In this document: positions 19,886-35,032 of the stretch, piece by piece
How the letters are laid out: each line of letters begins with the position of its first letter
Numbering within the stretch: the first letter of the stretch is position 1
NCBI GenBank assembly: GCA_022821775.1
Contig: JAJECY010000135.1
Coordinates: 1 to 38,242 of the forward strand
Length of the DNA: 38,242 bases
Reading direction: 5' to 3'
DNA from: Acidobacteriota bacterium
GTDB lineage: Bacteria; Acidobacteriota; Terriglobia; Versatilivoradales; Versatilivoraceae
Program-made: the position numbers and the translations under genes
Notes under the pieces: model-generated
What the model was told of the DNA's origin: nothing
The model's input: the letters and a program-made list of their open reading frames with translations, nothing else
Database searches by the model: none

Positions 19886-20836
19886 ATGCCCTTGACCAGT
19901 GACACCTTGAAAGGCATGTGGGCCGGAATGCCGGTCCCCTGGACCGCACAGGACCAGGTGGACGAAGAGGCCTTGCGGGAGAACGTCCGGCGGATGTGCC
20001 GGGCCGGCGCTCACGGGGTATACACCCACGGAACCACGGGAGAGTTCTATGCCCAGACGCCGGAGGAGTGGCGGCAGGTGGCGCGGGTCACGGTCGAGGA
20101 GTGCCGGCCGTTCGGAACTCCCACCCAGGTCGGATGCACCGCCCTGTGGACGGCCGAGGTTGTTCGCCGGGTCCGGTTCGCCCAGGAGATCGGAGCCGGC
20201 GGCGTCCAGGTGGCCTTCCCCTTCTGGCTGGCTCTGTCTGACGCCGAGGCTGTCGAATTTCTGAACGAGGTCACCCGACAGGCGCCCGGGATGCCGCTGA
20301 TTCTCTACAACACCGGGCGGGCCAAGAAGCCCCTGACCCCCGACCTGCTCAAGCGCCTGCTGGATCAGGACCTGCCCTTGATCGGGTGCAAGGGGGTCAA
20401 CAGTCCGGATGAGGCCGCGGCCTTTCTGGACCTGGATCCCGGGCTCAGGATCTTCGTGGGTGAAGAAAAGCTGGCTGATTGGTGGCATGCCGGGGTGCGC
20501 GGTTCCTACAGCTCCCTGGTCTATGCCTGCCCCAAGCTGATGCTGCGCTATTTTCAGCTCTGCGAAGAGGGCCATCCCGAGGCAGTGGAGATCGGCCAGG
20601 GCCTGCAGCGCCTCTTCCGGGAGTTCGTGTTGCCGCTCCTGCAAGAGGGCTTCACCGATACCGCCTTCGACCGCACCTTCGCGGCGGCCACCGGATTTCT
20701 GACCGGGGAACTGCTTTCCAGCCGTCCTCCCTACCGTGCGACCACCCGGAATCACGTGGACCGGTTCCGGCAATGCTGCCTGAGGCTCTTCCCCCGGTTC
20801 CTGGAAGAGAGCCGCGTTACCGCCGCAGCCGGCTGA
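19886..20836 (+). CDS. DapA/NanA-family class I aldolase (dihydrodipicolinate synthase family)
   Basis: A 316-residue Schiff-base lyase or synthase of the DHDPS/N-acetylneuraminate lyase family. The catalytic elements are present: GTTGE at 49-53, the YNTG tyrosine at Y141, and the lysine K169 in LIGCKGVN. The family acts on pyruvate plus an aldehyde, or on 2-keto-3-deoxy sugar acids. Because the neighbours are catabolic and no lysine-biosynthesis genes are nearby, a sugar-acid role is more likely than DapA proper. The ATG at 19886 has a strong AGGAGG upstream. It is divergent from the cupin with a shared operator-like repeat. Confidence 0.92.
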   Translation: MPLTSDTLKGMWAGMPVPWTAQDQVDEEALRENVRRMCRAGAHGVYTHGTTGEFYAQTPEEWRQVARVTVEECRPFGTPTQVGCTALWTAEVVRRVRFAQEIGAGGVQVAFPFWLALSDAEAVEFLNEVTRQAPGMPLILYNTGRAKKPLTPDLLKRLLDQDLPLIGCKGVNSPDEAAAFLDLDPGLRIFVGEEKLADWWHAGVRGSYSSLVYACPKLMLRYFQLCEEGHPEAVEIGQGLQRLFREFVLPLLQEGFTDTAFDRTFAAATGFLTGELLSSRPPYRATTRNHVDRFRQCCLRLFPRFLEESRVTAAAG

Positions 20837-27787: not shown

Positions 27788-28074
27788 GGCTTGGCACTCT
27801 CCTCTTGATTCATTGTTGGGGGGGGATGCGTGGCGCGTTCCGGAAAGGCGCTGTGAACCTAGCACGCTTGCCGGGGGGAGTCAACCGCGGCGGCCATGGG
27901 GCCCAATTTGGGGTTGAGGGAGCCCAGCGAGAGCGCTAGACTTAAGGATCACCGTCATGGGCTTGTTCACCTTACCGGGGCCGGGATGCGACTATGACCG
28001 CGCCCGTGCCGGTGAGGCAGACGGAAGAACCCGCCTGGCCCCGACGGACGGAATGTCTCCAGAGAGGTCGGTCC
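27788..28074. other. divergent spacer between aldolase and DUF1549 operons
   Basis: A 287-base spacer that should hold two divergent promoters. Only weak candidates are visible, with no convincing -35/-10 pair. A run of G lies near 27818-27825. The plus-strand frame is open from 27994, but the family-like signal peptide begins at 28075. Confidence 0.4.
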
Positions 28075-31000
28075 ATGAAAAGGAAGGCTAGCTTGAGGCT
28101 GGGATGGTTTTGCGGGATGGTGTCGGGCCTGGTCCTGGGGGCGGGAGCGTCCGCCTGGGCGCAAAGTCCCGAGCAGCCGGCGGTGGAGTTCGACCGCGAC
28201 ATCCGTCCCCTCCTGACCGACCGCTGCTACGCCTGCCACGGGCCCGACGAGGCAGCCCGCACCACCGAGCTGCGCTTCGATACCAAGGAGGGAGCCTTCG
28301 CCGACCTGGGCGGATACCGGGCCATCGTCCCCGGCGACCCGGACCGGAGCGAGATGTTCAAGCGAATTACCGCCGGTGAGGAAGCCCTCCGCATGCCCCC
28401 GTCCTACTCCGGGCTCGAACTGAACAAACAGGAGATCGAACTCATCCGCCTGTGGATCGAGCAGGGGGCCCGGTGGCAACGTCACTGGTCCTTTATTCCC
28501 CCCGAACGTCCTCCGCTGCCCGACGTTGCCGGTCAGGGCTGGACCCGCAACCCGATCGATTTCTTCGTGCTGGACCGACTGCGCAAGGAGCAGTTGACCC
28601 CCTCCGCCCCGGCCGACAAGACGGTGCTCATTCGCCGGGTCGCCCTGGACCTGACGGGGCTGCCCCCCACGCCGGATGAGGTGGATGCCTTTCTGGCCGA
28701 CGATTCTCCACGGGCCTACGAGAAGGTGGTGGACCGCCTGCTGCGGTCTCCGCGCTACGGCGAGCACATGGCCCTGGCATGGCTGGATGCGGCGCGCTAT
28801 GCGGACAGCAACGGCTACCAGACGGACGGGGAACGGACCATGTGGCGCTGGCGGGATTGGGTGATCGAGGCCTTCAACGCCAACATGCCCTTCGATCGCT
28901 TCACCGTGGAGCAACTGGCCGGGGACATGCTCCCCCAACCCACCCTGGAACAGCGGATCGCCACCGGCTTCAATCGCAACCACCGGGGCAACGGCGAGGG
29001 CGGCATCATCGCAGACGAGTTTGCCGTCGAGTACGTGGTGGACCGGGTGGAGACCACCGCCACCGTCTGGCTGGGCCTGACCCTGGGCTGCGCCCGCTGC
29101 CACGATCACAAGTACGACCCCTTCAGCCAGAAGGAGTTCTATCGAACCTTCGCCTACTTCAACAACATCCCCGAGCGCGGCAAGGTCTACAAGTACGGCA
29201 ATTCTCCCCCGATGATCAAGGCGCCCACCCGGCGGCAACAGCAGCAACTTGCCGATCTGCAAGAGAAACTGGAGAGGGCCGAGCAGGACTTCCAGGCGCT
29301 GGAGCCGGAGCTGGACCGGGCCCAACAACAGTGGGAAGCCACCTTCGGGAAACGGCGCCCCCTCCACTGGTCCATTGCGGAAGGACTGTTGGGGCATTTT
29401 CCCCTGGATGGAAAGGCCCGCGGCTGGCGGCGTCCCCTCCCGGCATCCGCCAAGGGAACCAAGGCCAAGTCCGGATTCAAGGACGGACGGCCGGGATTCA
29501 CCCGGGGGAAGATCGGCCAGGCCGGCAGTTTCGACGGCCAACGCTTCATCGATGCCGGAGACCTCGGCAACTTCGGCTTCTACGACCGTTTCTCCTTGGG
29601 AGCCTGGATCTACCCCGAGGGCGAACAGGGCGGCGCCATCCTCTCGCGGACCCTGGAACTGGAAAAGGAAAAGGGATACCGGGTGGCCCTGCTGGAAGGC
29701 AAGGTCCACGTCAACCTGGTGGTGCGCTGGCTGGACGATTCCATCCGGGTCGAGACGGAGAGGACCCTGGCTCCCAATCGGTGGCACCACGTCATGGTGA
29801 CCTACGACGGGTCCCGCACCTCCAAGGCGATCAGGATCTACGTCGACGGCAAGCCGGAGAAATTCAAGGTGCTGGTGGATGACTTGAACCTCACCTTCAA
29901 GAACGAGGAACCCTTTCGCATCGGATCGGGGGGAGGACCCGGAAGCCGCTTCCAGGGGTTGATCGACGAGGTGAGAGTCTACGATCGCGCTCTCCCGCCG
30001 GACGAGGTCAAGGTGGTTGCCACACCGACGGCCATCAACGACATCGTAAGAAAACCGCCGGATCGGAGAAGCCGGACCGAAACCGACAAGCTTCGCGCCT
30101 ACTTCCTGCAGAAGCATGCGCCCAAGCCGGTGCGCCGGGCCCACCACCGGATCCTGGGCCTCGAGAAGCAAAAAGCAGCTCTATTGGAAGTGGTTCCCAC
30201 CACCATGGTGATGCAGGAGCGGGAGGAGCCGCGGGAGACCTTCATGCTGCTGCGAGGCGCCTACGACCAGCCCGGCGAGAAGGTCGATCCCGGCGTTCCC
30301 GAGGTCCTGAGCGGCGGCGCCAACGGAAAGATCCGCAATCGCCTGGACCTCGCCCGCTGGTTGGTCCATCCACGCAATCCGCTGACTCCGCGGGTGGTTG
30401 TCAACCGTTACTGGCAGAGGCTCTTCGGCCGGGGACTGGTTCGCACCGTCGAGGACTTCGGCTCCCAGGGTGAACGCCCGACTCACCCCGCCCTGCTGGA
30501 CTGGCTGGCCAGCGAGTTCGTGAGCTCAGGCTGGGATCTCAAGGCCCTGCAAAAGACCCTGGTCATGAGCGCCACCTATCGCCAGTCCTCCCGTGCCGCC
30601 CCGGAACTGCTGGCCAAGGATCCGGAAAATCTCCTGCTGGCGCGAGGCCCCCGCCAGCGGCTTTCGGCCCAGGCGATTCGCGATCAAGCCCTGTTCGTCG
30701 GGGGGCTGCTGGTGGAAAAGCTGGGCGGTCCTTCGGTGAAGCCCTATCAGCCGGCGGGGCTCTGGGAGGAACTGGCCGGGGATATCGCCTACAACCAGAG
30801 CACCGGGGAAGATCTCTACCGCAGGAGCCTCTACACCTTCTGGAAGCGCACCATCGCACCGCCCTCCATGCTGAATTTCGACGCTGCCGCCCGCGAGATG
30901 TGCACCGTGCATGTCAGCCGGACCAACACCCCCCTGCAGGCGCTCAACCTGATGAACGACGTCACCTTTGTGGAGGCCGCGCGCGGGCTGGCCCAGCGGG

Positions 31001-31278
31001 TGCTGGCCGAACCGCAGAGCCGATCCCATTCGGACCGGATTGCCCTGGCCTTTCGCCTGGCCACGGCCCGCCGGCCGACTGCCGAGGAAGGCAGGATCCT
31101 GCTGGAAAGCCTGGAAGCCCACCTGGCTACCTATCGCTCCAATCGCAAGGCGGCCAAGGAACTGCTGGGCACGGGAGAATCCCGCGTCCCCAAGGGCCTG
31201 GACCCCCGCGAGGTGGCCGCCTACACGGCCGTCGCCAGCCTGATTTTGAACCTCGATGAAACCATTACCAAGGAGTGA
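28075..31278 (+). CDS. exported cytochrome-c-like PSD1/DUF1549-LamG-DUF1553 protein
   Basis: A 1067-residue protein with a signal peptide (MKRKASLRLGWFCGMVSGLV, then LGAGASAWA). A planctomycete-type cytochrome c domain follows, with haem motif CYACH (C51, C54, H55). DUF1549 comes next, with CARCHDHKYDPF around 339-350. A concanavalin/LamG-like domain is inserted at about 440-635 (FPLDGKARG to IDEVRVYDRAL). DUF1553 covers about 755-1020, with LTPRVVVNRYWQRLFGRGLV and TNTPLQALNLMND. The mature protein should be periplasmic. These modules occur in carbohydrate-degrading bacteria, but their reaction is not settled. The DUF1501 gene follows after 3 bases and the DapA-like gene right after that, making a three-gene operon. 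Confidence 0.95.
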   Translation: MKRKASLRLGWFCGMVSGLVLGAGASAWAQSPEQPAVEFDRDIRPLLTDRCYACHGPDEAARTTELRFDTKEGAFADLGGYRAIVPGDPDRSEMFKRITAGEEALRMPPSYSGLELNKQEIELIRLWIEQGARWQRHWSFIPPERPPLPDVAGQGWTRNPIDFFVLDRLRKEQLTPSAPADKTVLIRRVALDLTGLPPTPDEVDAFLADDSPRAYEKVVDRLLRSPRYGEHMALAWLDAARYADSNGYQTDGERTMWRWRDWVIEAFNANMPFDRFTVEQLAGDMLPQPTLEQRIATGFNRNHRGNGEGGIIADEFAVEYVVDRVETTATVWLGLTLGCARCHDHKYDPFSQKEFYRTFAYFNNIPERGKVYKYGNSPPMIKAPTRRQQQQLADLQEKLERAEQDFQALEPELDRAQQQWEATFGKRRPLHWSIAEGLLGHFPLDGKARGWRRPLPASAKGTKAKSGFKDGRPGFTRGKIGQAGSFDGQRFIDAGDLGNFGFYDRFSLGAWIYPEGEQGGAILSRTLELEKEKGYRVALLEGKVHVNLVVRWLDDSIRVETERTLAPNRWHHVMVTYDGSRTSKAIRIYVDGKPEKFKVLVDDLNLTFKNEEPFRIGSGGGPGSRFQGLIDEVRVYDRALPPDEVKVVATPTAINDIVRKPPDRRSRTETDKLRAYFLQKHAPKPVRRAHHRILGLEKQKAALLEVVPTTMVMQEREEPRETFMLLRGAYDQPGEKVDPGVPEVLSGGANGKIRNRLDLARWLVHPRNPLTPRVVVNRYWQRLFGRGLVRTVEDFGSQGERPTHPALLDWLASEFVSSGWDLKALQKTLVMSATYRQSSRAAPELLAKDPENLLLARGPRQRLSAQAIRDQALFVGGLLVEKLGGPSVKPYQPAGLWEELAGDIAYNQSTGEDLYRRSLYTFWKRTIAPPSMLNFDAAAREMCTVHVSRTNTPLQALNLMNDVTFVEAARGLAQRVLAEPQSRSHSDRIALAFRLATARRPTAEEGRILLESLEAHLATYRSNRKAAKELLGTGESRVPKGLDPREVAAYTAVASLILNLDETITKE

Positions 31279-31281
31279 GCC

Positions 31282-32760
31282 ATGAATCCTTTCCTGGAAA
31301 GCCAGCTTCTGCTCACCCGTCGGCACTTTTTCGGTCTCTCCAGTTGGGGACTGGGGACAGCCGCCCTGGCATCGCTGCTGGAGGGAGACGCGGCCGCGGC
31401 CGGACCGGACCGGTCCGCAATCCAGCCGCTTCCCGGTGAGGCAGGGCTTCCGGAGCTTCCTCACTTCGCCCCCAAGGCCAAGAGAGTGATCTACCTGTTC
31501 CAGTCGGGGGCTCCCGCTCAAATGGACCTGTTCGACCACAAGCCCGGGCTGCAGGAGCGCCGCGCCCAGCAACTGCCCGATTCGGTGCGCAAGGGCCAGC
31601 GGCTCACCGGGATGACCGCCACCCAGGACAGCCTGCCCATCGCCCCCTCGATCTTCAAATTCAAGCAGAATGGCCAATCGGGAGCCTGGGTCAGCGAAAT
31701 CATGTCCCATACCGCCAAGGTCGCCGACGAGCTGTGCTTCATTCGGACCATGCACACCGAGGCGATCAACCACGATCCGGCCATTACCTTTTTCCAGACC
31801 GGCGCCCAGTTGGCCGGCCGCCCCAGCATCGGAGCCTGGCTCTCCTATGGGCTGGGAAGTCAGAATCGGGACCTGCCCACCTTCGTGGCCATGATCTCGC
31901 AAGGGACCGGCAAGTCCGACAGCCAGCCCCTCTACGATCGCTTGTGGGGCAGCGGCTTCCTTCCCACCAAGTACCAGGGTGTCAAGTTTCGCTCGGTAGG
32001 CGACCCCGTGCTCTACCTCTCCAATCCTCCGGGACTCTCCTCCGCCGGACGCCGCCGCTTCCTGGATGACCTTTCCCGACTCAACCAGTTGAAGCTGAAG
32101 GATTTCGGAGACCCGGAAATCTCCACCCGCATCTCCCAGTACGAGATGGCCTATCGAATGCAGACCTCGGTTCCGGACCTGATGGATCTGTCGAGCGAAC
32201 CGGAGAGGACCTTCGAGCTCTATGGACCGGCTTCCCGAAAGCCGGGGACTTACGCCGCCAACTGCCTGCTGGCCAGGCGACTGGTGGAACGCGGCGTGCG
32301 TTTCGTTCAGCTTTTCCATCGCGGCTGGGACCAGCACTCCAAGCTCCCCGAGCAGATCAAGGGGCAGGCCATGGATACCGACCAGCCCTCGGCGGCCCTG
32401 ATCCAGGATCTGAAGGAACGCGGACTGCTTGAGGACACGTTGGTGATCTGGGGCGGCGAGTTCGGTCGCACCGTCTACTGCCAGGGAAAGCTCACGGCCG
32501 ACGACTACGGCCGCGACCACCATCCCCGCTGCTTTACCATCTGGATGGCGGGAGGAGGCATCAAGCCGGGGACCACTTACGGCGAAACGGACGACTACAG
32601 CTACAACATCGTCCGCGACCCCGTCCACATCCACGACCTCCATGCCACCATCCTGCACTGCCTGGGAATCGACCACACCCAATTGACCTTCAAGTTCCAG
32701 GGGCGCCATTTCCGACTGACCGACGTGCACGGCAAGGTGGTGAAGCCGATTCTGGCCTGA
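31282..32760 (+). CDS. DUF1501 Tat-exported protein
   Basis: A 492-residue sulfatase-fold protein of the DUF1501 family. It has a twin-arginine signal ([20 protein letters not shown]) and family blocks [32 protein letters not shown] and [22 protein letters not shown]1501 genes almost always sit beside DUF1549/DUF1553 cytochromes, as here. Their joint function is unknown but is thought to concern extracellular polysaccharide use. It starts 3 bases after the upstream stop, so translation is probably coupled. Confidence 0.95.
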
Positions 32761-33912
32761 ATGGTGCGCCATTTTCAGTCCCACGAGCCTGGGCGTCCGC
32801 TCCCCACCCAATCCAAGGGAAAAGCACTGAAGAGCAATCCACCACCATCGAGGCCGGCTTCAGAGCGACAGGCTTCCCGAAGAAGTCTTTGTAAAATGGG
32901 CGCACTGGCCCTCGGGAGCCTGGCTCTTCCCTGGGGTTGCCGTCAACCGCCCGCCTCACCCGGCCGGCGCTGGAGTTCCACGGAGGAACTGATCAAGGCC
33001 CTGGACGGTCCCCACAACTACCTGCCCACTCCGTTTCGAGCCGATTACTCGGTGGACGTGGAAGGCCTTCGGCGCAACGTGGCCTACCACGCCGAAGGGG
33101 ATCGCCTGACGGTGGTGGTCGGAGGCGGCTATGGCGAAGGCTGGAAGCTGAGCCTGGAGGAGCACCGTGAGGTGGTCGCTGCCGCCGTATCGGGCGCCCG
33201 GCGGCAAATGCCGGTGATGGCGGGAGTGATCGGCGGATACAGGATTTCCATTGACATGGCCAGGAACGCCGAAAGGGCCGGCGCGGATGCGCTGGTGATT
33301 TTCCCTCCCCGAGGGCAACACTGGCGTGCTGAAAACTACTACGAATTCTACAAGGACATCATTGCTTCGGTCTCCATCGGCGCCGTCATCCTCCCCAGTG
33401 GCCAACACGATTTCTGGCCGGAGGTTCTCATCCGATTGGCCGAGATCCCCAACATGATCGGATTCTTCCCCTCTCTGGGCCCGGATGAGGACTACTATCC
33501 CAGGACCGGGGGACAGATTCTGGAGGCCGTTGCCAAGCCCCTGCTGTTCATGGCGGAAAATGAACCGGCCGCCTCCGCTTCATTTTCGCGGGGAAGCCGC
33601 GCCTATTCCACGGCGGCGGCCGCGCTGGTTCCGGAGGCCTCCAGGCGCTTCTGGAAGCACGGAGTGGCCGGAGAGACCGCGAAGATGGAGGAGGTGCTGA
33701 AAACCGAGGTGGACCCCATTCTCAAGATCCGCGGCTACAAGCCGGGCTACGGCATCAGCGGCATCAAGGTGGCCATGGAAGCCTTGGGAAGGGCCGGGGG
33801 GCCTGTCCGTCCGCCCGGCACCCAGGTGGATCCCGCAGATCGGGCAGGCATCGCCGAGATCCTGCGGAAGCATCCCGAGACGCGTTCCCTGGTCGTCGAG
33901 GACTTCACCTAG
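32761..33912 (+). CDS. exported DapA-family homologue lacking the Schiff-base lysine
   Basis: A 383-residue protein whose core (about residues 75-340) has the DapA/NanA fold text (LPTPFRADYSVDVEGLRRNV, GGGYGEGWKLSLEEHREVV). The N-terminus carries a twin-arginine-like signal (RRSLCKMGALALGSLALPWG, then Cys), so it is probably exported. In place of the catalytic lysine segment it reads NMIGFFPSLGPD, with F236 where K is expected. The tyrosine motif (YNxP) is also lost (VILPSGQHDFW). A class I aldolase reaction is therefore unlikely. It may bind a sugar acid instead. The start codon is uncertain. ATG 32761 immediately follows the DUF1501 stop and has no clear ribosome-binding site. Confidence 0.85.
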   Translation: MVRHFQSHEPGRPLPTQSKGKALKSNPPPSRPASERQASRRSLCKMGALALGSLALPWGCRQPPASPGRRWSSTEELIKALDGPHNYLPTPFRADYSVDVEGLRRNVAYHAEGDRLTVVVGGGYGEGWKLSLEEHREVVAAAVSGARRQMPVMAGVIGGYRISIDMARNAERAGADALVIFPPRGQHWRAENYYEFYKDIIASVSIGAVILPSGQHDFWPEVLIRLAEIPNMIGFFPSLGPDEDYYPRTGGQILEAVAKPLLFMAENEPAASASFSRGSRAYSTAAAALVPEASRRFWKHGVAGETAKMEEVLKTEVDPILKIRGYKPGYGISGIKVAMEALGRAGGPVRPPGTQVDPADRAGIAEILRKHPETRSLVVEDFT

Positions 33913-33988: not shown

Positions 33989-35032
33989 ATGGTAACCAAG
34001 ACAGCCGACGAGCTTCGCCGTTTGACCCGGCAGATTCTGGAAGCGGCCGGAGCCGTCCCCGACCAGGCCGAAATCGTGGCGGAGCACCTGGTCCTGGCCA
34101 ATTTGCGTGGGGTGGACTCCCATGGAGTCTGGCATATCGAGGGCTATGTGCGGGCCATCCGGGACGGACACATCCGCGTGGCGGCGGAGCCGAAGATCGC
34201 CCGGGAAACCCCGGCAAGCGCACTGGTGCAGGGGGATTGGGCCTTCGGACACGTGGTGGGGCGCTTCGCCATGCAGACGGCCATTGAAAAAGCCGGGAAC
34301 CAGGGTTTGTCAGTCGTCTCCCTTGTTCAAACCCACCACATCGGCCGACTGGGTCACTATGCGGAAATGGCCGCGGCCGAGGGCATGGTCTCGATGGTCT
34401 GGGCCGGAGGCCAGGGGGCCGAGAAACCGGCTGCCGTCCCCTTTGGTGGGCGCAAACCCCTTTTTCACACCAACCCCATCGCCATGGGTTTGCCCATGGG
34501 AAGTCAAGCCCCTGTCATCATCGATTTCGCCACCTCGGCCACCGCCGGTGTCAAGGTGATCAACGCCTTCAACCGAAATCAGCAACTTCCCACCGATTGC
34601 GTTGTGGACAAGGAGGGGAATCCCACCACCGATCCCCGGAAATTCATCGACGGGGGCGCCCACCTGCCCTTCGGCGGCCACAAGGGCTATGCCTTGATGC
34701 TGGCCACCGAGATGCTGGGCAGGACCTTCAGCGGGGCTGACGACGGAGCCGGGCTCGACTATTCCGATCCTCTCTTTCGACGCCACGGCGCCACCTTGAT
34801 CGTCTTCCGGGCCGACCTGTTCCAGCCGCTGTCCCAGTACAGCGGGCGCGCCGACGAGCTGGCCCGCCGAGCCCTGGCCATTCCGCCCGCTCCCGGCTTC
34901 AAGGAAGTCCTGCTGCCGGGCGTGCCAGAGGACCGAACCCAACAGGTCCGCCAGCGGGACGGCATCCCCATCGCCGACGACATCTGGGAAACCATCGTCC
35001 AGTCGGCATCCTCGGTGGGTGTTCAGGCCTGA
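33989..35032 (+). CDS. malate/L-lactate/ureidoglycolate dehydrogenase family (Ldh2) oxidoreductase
   Basis: A 347-residue NAD(P)-dependent 2-hydroxyacid dehydrogenase of the Ldh_2 (type II malate/lactate dehydrogenase) family. Typical motifs are DSHGVWHIEGYV (D43-G46), QTHHIGRLGHYAEMAA (H116-H117) and LPFGGHKGYALML near residue 230. Relatives oxidise malate, L-lactate, ureidoglycolate or 2,3-diketogulonate-type sugar acids. With the LysR gene downstream and the aldolases nearby, a sugar-acid substrate is plausible. It is cytoplasmic, starts at ATG 33989 and lies 76 bases after the DapA-like gene. Confidence 0.92.
   Translation: MVTKTADELRRLTRQILEAAGAVPDQAEIVAEHLVLANLRGVDSHGVWHIEGYVRAIRDGHIRVAAEPKIARETPASALVQGDWAFGHVVGRFAMQTAIEKAGNQGLSVVSLVQTHHIGRLGHYAEMAAAEGMVSMVWAGGQGAEKPAAVPFGGRKPLFHTNPIAMGLPMGSQAPVIIDFATSATAGVKVINAFNRNQQLPTDCVVDKEGNPTTDPRKFIDGGAHLPFGGHKGYALMLATEMLGRTFSGADDGAGLDYSDPLFRRHGATLIVFRADLFQPLSQYSGRADELARRALAIPPAPGFKEVLLPGVPEDRTQQVRQRDGIPIADDIWETIVQSASSVGVQA

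Follow-up and report, generated by a model that had tools for sequence, protein, structure and literature searches.

Members of the DHDPS/NAL superfamily are characterised by a catalytic lysine that forms a Schiff base (PMC13398020). The locus studied here, in a stretch of 38,242 nucleotides from an Acidobacteriota bacterium (contig JAJECY010000135.1; hereafter the window), raises the question of what a protein of this fold does when that lysine is absent. The initial annotation described the open reading frame at 32761–33912 as an exported, lysine-less DapA-fold protein, apparently repurposed for binding or another reaction and probably belonging to a DUF1501 module. The features discussed below are as follows; residue numbers are those of the frame as annotated from ATG 32761 (383 aa).

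27994–31278, + strand: secreted protein with the Pfam domains PSCyt1, PSCyt2 (DUF1549), Laminin_G_3 and PSD1 (DUF1553); 69% identical neighbour in G008
31282–32760, + strand: DUF1501 protein (PF07394, E 1.8e-160), separated from the CTG by 66 nt; its counterpart in G008 is 84% identical
32815–32829, + strand: Shine-Dalgarno-like AAGGGA (32815–32820) and CTG start codon (32827–32829); aligned starts in six relatives
32827–33912, + strand: DapA/KdgD-fold protein with a Tat signal, 361 aa from the CTG, according to PF00701, AlphaFold2, Foldseek and the start-codon comparison
32875–32940, + strand: twin-arginine signal SRRSLCKMGALALGSLALPWGC (residues 39–60), conserved in the focal lineage and in most paralogue lineages
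33391–33393, + strand: Leu211, at the position of the YNxP catalytic tyrosine after β5; Tyr in 16/16 Lys-positive family members
33466–33468, + strand: Phe236, at the position of the Schiff-base lysine after β6 (232–235); Lys in 16 family and 17 outgroup members
33989–35032, + strand: Ldh_2 protein (malate/L-lactate dehydrogenase-like; PF02615, E 6.7e-103); 72% identical neighbour in G008

Fold and catalytic positions of the focal protein

The focal frame is unbroken, and its product matches PF00701 (E = 1.5e-30; 106 bits against a gathering score of 22.1). Its AlphaFold2 model, built from an alignment of 19 sequences, is a full (β/α)8 barrel with eight strands and pLDDT >90 for 253 residues, and it places Phe236 at the end of strand β6. 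The best Foldseek matches of this model all come from the DHDPS/NAL superfamily, the top one being 4ur7 (keto-deoxy-galactarate dehydratase; TM 0.86–0.87 by target length, 27% identity). The description as a DapA fold is therefore correct as to superfamily and barrel, but among named families the protein is closest to KdgD (5-dehydro-4-deoxyglucarate dehydratase) rather than to DapA itself. The protein does not reach the curated cut-offs of KdgD (TIGR03249, 148 vs 374 bits; PRK03620, 168 vs 278 bits) or of DapA (TIGR00674, 71 vs 206 bits). The gene at 19886–20836, cited in the initial annotation as a canonical DapA, does have its lysine intact, but its PF00701 score of 81 bits marks it as a divergent member, and the genome has a far better match at another place (C152, 310 bits).

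The replacement of the lysine by Phe236 is well founded. The same residue occupies this position in six same-genus orthologues (G001–G006) and in one from another genus (G008), while the basal relative L020 has Leu, and Phe or Leu is found in 9/9 rows of the focal lineage. A sequencing error was rejected, given the Phe in seven other genomes. The tyrosine is equally lost, with Leu-Pro standing for Tyr-Asn after β5. Neither the lysine of the class I mechanism nor the tyrosine of KdgD is thus present, and with both gone the chemistry of the superfamily is unavailable to the focal protein. A lysine that could restore the site from another position was sought in the focal lineage: only K259, K336 and K370 are fixed there, and none of them qualifies, since K336 occurs throughout family and outgroup, and K259 and K370 lie away from the C-terminal ends of the strands.

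Among the residues retained throughout the family are H85, T90, E126, W219, E268 and R324, with H85, W219 and the GxGE motif fixed, and those fixed in the focal lineage alone are H216, P237, L239, Y246, N267, A270 and Y326. Among the three most diverged members, the residues at the C-terminal ends of the strands are 64% identical vs 47% overall. Conservation on the other side of the barrel is almost as high (61%), so the pocket does not stand out strongly.

Start codon and export signal

The gene had been described as starting directly after the DUF1501 stop. Indeed, ATG 32761 abuts this stop, but it is not conserved in relatives. The codon aligned to CTG 32827 is CTG in G005, G004 and G002, TTG in G003, ATG in G001 and GTG in G008. 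Moreover, an in-frame TAA lies four codons (G005) and two codons (G004) upstream of the aligned start, no ATG, GTG or TTG was found before the RR motif in these two genomes, and other relatives carry frame-shifting indels upstream of the conserved start. On the strength of these stops, indels and aligned codons we rejected a start at ATG 32761, and translation very probably begins at CTG 32827. With this start the gene would begin 66 nt past the DUF1501 stop, and Phe236 would become Phe214. The probable CTG start is common to four genomes and is swapped for TTG, ATG or GTG in other relatives.

The twin-arginine-like signal claimed earlier is recognizable as SRRSL followed by a hydrophobic stretch (39–59) that includes GALALGSLALP, and the SRR-x-[FL] motif with its hydrophobic stretch is kept in the focal lineage and in most paralogue lineages. 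Because translation very probably starts at the CTG, upstream of the RR motif, the signal should be part of the protein, contrary to the refuting case that the initial annotation had named. Cys60 is a possible lipid-anchor cysteine in an atypical lipobox (PWGC, scored against [LVI][ASTVI][GAS]C); the corresponding residues are PWGC in the genus, MTGC in G008, and MAAC, SSGC or LQGC in paralogues.

Paralogues, lysine losses and selection

The source genome contains five related copies, namely the focal gene, one gene each on contigs C204 and C41, and a tandem pair on C175. The nearest paralogues of the focal gene lie on other contigs and are only 42–50% identical to it. Same-genus genomes have three to six matching places each, some of which are fragments of split genes, and G008, from another genus of the same bacterial family, has five. 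Our searches covered Acidobacteriota, plasmids and one pattern-based genome scan (close relatives only). Outside the bacterial family, which we take to consist of sponge and marine MAGs, G641 is the sole genome with a member among 299 genomes of the class. Complete members score at least about 457 bits, after which scores drop to about 215 bits for the rest. The source genome encodes 14 PF00701 proteins, 11 of them with the lysine; the three without it all belong to the KdgD-like family of the focal gene, which comprises five lineages in this bacterial family, most of them bearing export signals.

At the lysine column, the focal lineage has Phe (Leu in L020), the C41 lineage and L058 have Glu, and the second C175 gene has Gln, while Lys is present in the C204 lineage, the first C175 gene, L033 and G641. 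After β5, the focal lineage carries Leu or Phe, and the Glu/Gln rows have a longer loop that includes a conserved His; in these rows the residue aligned to the tyrosine varies between Phe, Tyr and His. A family tree computed without the lysine and tyrosine columns separates the Phe/Leu clade (99/99) from the Glu/Gln clade (92/87). A tree forcing all Lys-less rows together was rejected by the AU test (p = 0.027), a rejection of a single loss that is of moderate strength only. Thus, there is moderate support for at least two losses of the lysine, to Phe/Leu in the focal lineage and to Glu/Gln in another.

The RR motif with its hydrophobic stretch is found in the focal, C204, C41 and second C175 lineages, in L033 and in G641; the first C175 lineage keeps the RR with no hydrophobic stretch, and no signal was seen in L020, L058 or the G008 copy of the first C175 gene. 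Export and lysine loss, which the initial annotation had treated together, are therefore separate traits: the Lys-positive C204 lineage and L033 share the Tat signal, and L020 and L058 are Lys-less without a clear one. Lineages with the lysine and lineages without it both carry the signal, so that export likely preceded the loss of the lysine.

All lineages are under purifying selection, with median pairwise dN/dS values of 0.17 (focal), 0.12 (C204), 0.13 (C41), 0.14 (second C175) and 0.20 (first C175). The Lys-less and Lys-positive genes are under similar constraint, and these values indicate that the lineages are not decaying, which favours a repurposed protein over a dying one.

Three further members or branches deserve mention. 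The gene at L003 1507–2595 (− strand) and its relatives have Glu in place of the lysine and a conserved His-bearing insert after β5, and its product is modelled as a full barrel; a new reaction is more plausible for it than for the focal gene. The tandem pair consists of L049 5690–6745, with Lys and no good signal, and the next gene (C175:7279–9263), with Gln and a Tat lipoprotein-like signal; G008 has kept this pair, next to RraA-like and amidase-like genes. Finally, L012 1432–2484 (C204:8784–9671; lysine intact) and L053 10392–11432 form a second, distant PF00701 branch with a Tat-type signal, so that DapA-like proteins of these bacteria may have become exported on more than one occasion.

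Gene neighbourhood and possible role

The focal locus and that of G008 (L044) have exactly four genes in common, the PSCyt/PSD1, DUF1501, focal (69% identical) and Ldh_2 genes, the last of which closes the block, and both flanks differ between the two loci. In the PSCyt/PSD1 gene a signal-like sequence follows an internal ATG at 28075; no export signal was seen in the Ldh_2 protein. The conservation of this block in another genus supports the proposed association of the focal gene with the PSCyt/PSD1 and DUF1501 genes, but the initial claim of a fusion by operon comes from gene order and strand only, and a promoter and terminator scan of the four genes gave no more than expected by chance. The DUF1501 family is strikingly expanded, with 53 genes in the source genome (4.4 Mb), 56 in G001 and 37 in G008. 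Since these genes are so numerous, a lone DUF1501 adjacency is weak evidence, and a conserved order with different flanks means more.

The Glu lineage also lies beside PSCyt2/PSD1 and DUF1501 genes (G000, G001 and G008), the Lys-positive C204 lineage lies beside amidohydrolases, and the members in G007 and G641 adjoin or lie near aldo/keto reductases. Family members next to or near aldo/keto reductase genes recur at L057, L056, L058 and L106, and the reductases at L057 and L106 have an RR motif near the N-terminus. It had been proposed to check whether homologues next to DUF1501 genes always lack the lysine and carry the signal. We found no strict match: the Lys-positive L095 in G641 has a DUF1501 gene about 1 kb away on the opposite strand, while the Gln lineage, L020 and L058 are Lys-less without an adjacent one. 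A rule that the lysine is absent whenever DUF1501 is adjacent is thus too simple, and the coincidence of the two is a tendency only.

Taken together, the Phe or Leu throughout the focal lineage, the lack of a rescue lysine, the full barrel, the conserved signal and start, the dN/dS and the four-gene block support a reading to which we give about an even chance: that the focal protein is a Tat-exported, possibly lipid-anchored KdgD/DapA-fold barrel without a Schiff base, repurposed for non-covalent binding or chemistry. It would reside in the periplasm or at the outer face of the inner membrane, partner with the neighbouring PSCyt/DUF1501 proteins, and bind a sugar-acid or keto-acid-like ligand non-covalently through the kept T90, E126, Y160, E268 and R324, with a contribution from the newly fixed H216, N267, Y246 and P237. 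The barrel could act as a binding subunit or as a non-Schiff-base lyase or isomerase, and the Ldh_2 enzyme might act on the product in the cytoplasm. The large number of DUF1501 genes and the weakly distinguished pocket count against it, and so does the replacement of polar catalytic residues in the focal lineage by Phe, Leu, Pro and Ala, a pattern as compatible with a scaffold as with a binder.

The same replacements, which leave few obvious catalytic groups, weigh against an enzyme with a new Lys-independent reaction (an acid-base or metal-assisted lyase, hydratase or epimerase), which we consider rather unlikely despite the strict conservation of H216, N267, Y246 and Y326, the conserved His insert and Glu/Gln gained by the Glu/Gln lineage, and neighbours that are redox and sugar-acid-type enzymes. 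DapA-type enzymes are usually dimers or tetramers, which favours a non-catalytic regulatory or structural subunit in a mixed oligomer with a Lys-positive exported paralogue; such paralogues are encoded in same-genus genomes and in G008, and the Gln lineage is in tandem with a Lys-positive gene. However, the focal gene is not beside a Lys-positive member and its nearest paralogues are distant, so that we regard this as unlikely but still a serious rival. An ordinary class I KdgD/DapA-type enzyme with its lysine supplied from elsewhere would agree with the KdgD-like best score and the standard fold, but it is very hard to reconcile with the loss of the tyrosine as well, the lack of a lineage-specific conserved strand-end lysine, and KdgD and DapA scores far below cut-off. 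As for a decaying pseudogene or an assembly error, the simultaneous loss of all hallmark catalytic residues and the in-frame stops that precede the conserved start in two of the relatives could suggest it; yet the frame is open from that start, the predicted fold is intact, and the Phe recurs in seven other genomes of two genera with dN/dS of about 0.17, which rules it out for practical purposes.

Returning to the repurposed barrel, a broader version is tentative and rather doubtful: in an exported KdgD-like family, the aldolase lysine would have been replaced at least twice, each time with coordinated remodelling of the pocket, and the outcome would be a Lys-independent enzyme or receptor in the periplasm, acting on extracellular sugar acids together with the PSCyt/DUF1501 cytochrome module. 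The residue that defines a whole enzyme superfamily seems here to have been lost more than once under purifying selection, and the Lys-keeping sister copies offer a ready comparison for a class I aldolase barrel taking another role. The focal barrel is also a small, foldable partner candidate for the abundant, functionally unexplained DUF1501/PSCyt modules.

Within the set of papers searched, nothing directly relevant turned up on Lys-less or exported DapA-type proteins or on DUF1501 with DUF1549. Among known systems, KdgD (PDB 4ur7) resembles the focal protein in fold and gives its best NCBIfam subfamily match (PRK03620, E 2.6e-49), but the focal protein has no Schiff-base Lys or catalytic Tyr, and it carries a Tat signal and an extra loop, DEDYYPRTGG, after β6. 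With DapA (4-hydroxy-tetrahydrodipicolinate synthase) it shares the PF00701 superfamily, barrel architecture, GxGE motif and C-terminal helices; unlike DapA, it lacks the Lys, the YNxP Tyr and the Thr of the GTTGE-type motif, and has an export signal. The Lys-positive paralogues with signals in the same bacterial family (C204 lineage, L033) and L095 in G641 are 41–50% identical, with H85, W219 and GxGE fixed and the same Tat-type signal, but keep Lys and Tyr, and their usual neighbours are amidohydrolases or aldo/keto reductases instead of a PSCyt/DUF1501 block. For the PSCyt/PSD set, a role in carbohydrate metabolism has been suggested, although its function is reported as unknown (PMC5615132). 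The PSCyt/PSD1 pairs of Planctomycetota and Verrucomicrobia, found with DUF1501, have the same domain set and a neighbour of unknown function, whereas here a Lys-less barrel and an Ldh_2 gene come after the pair.
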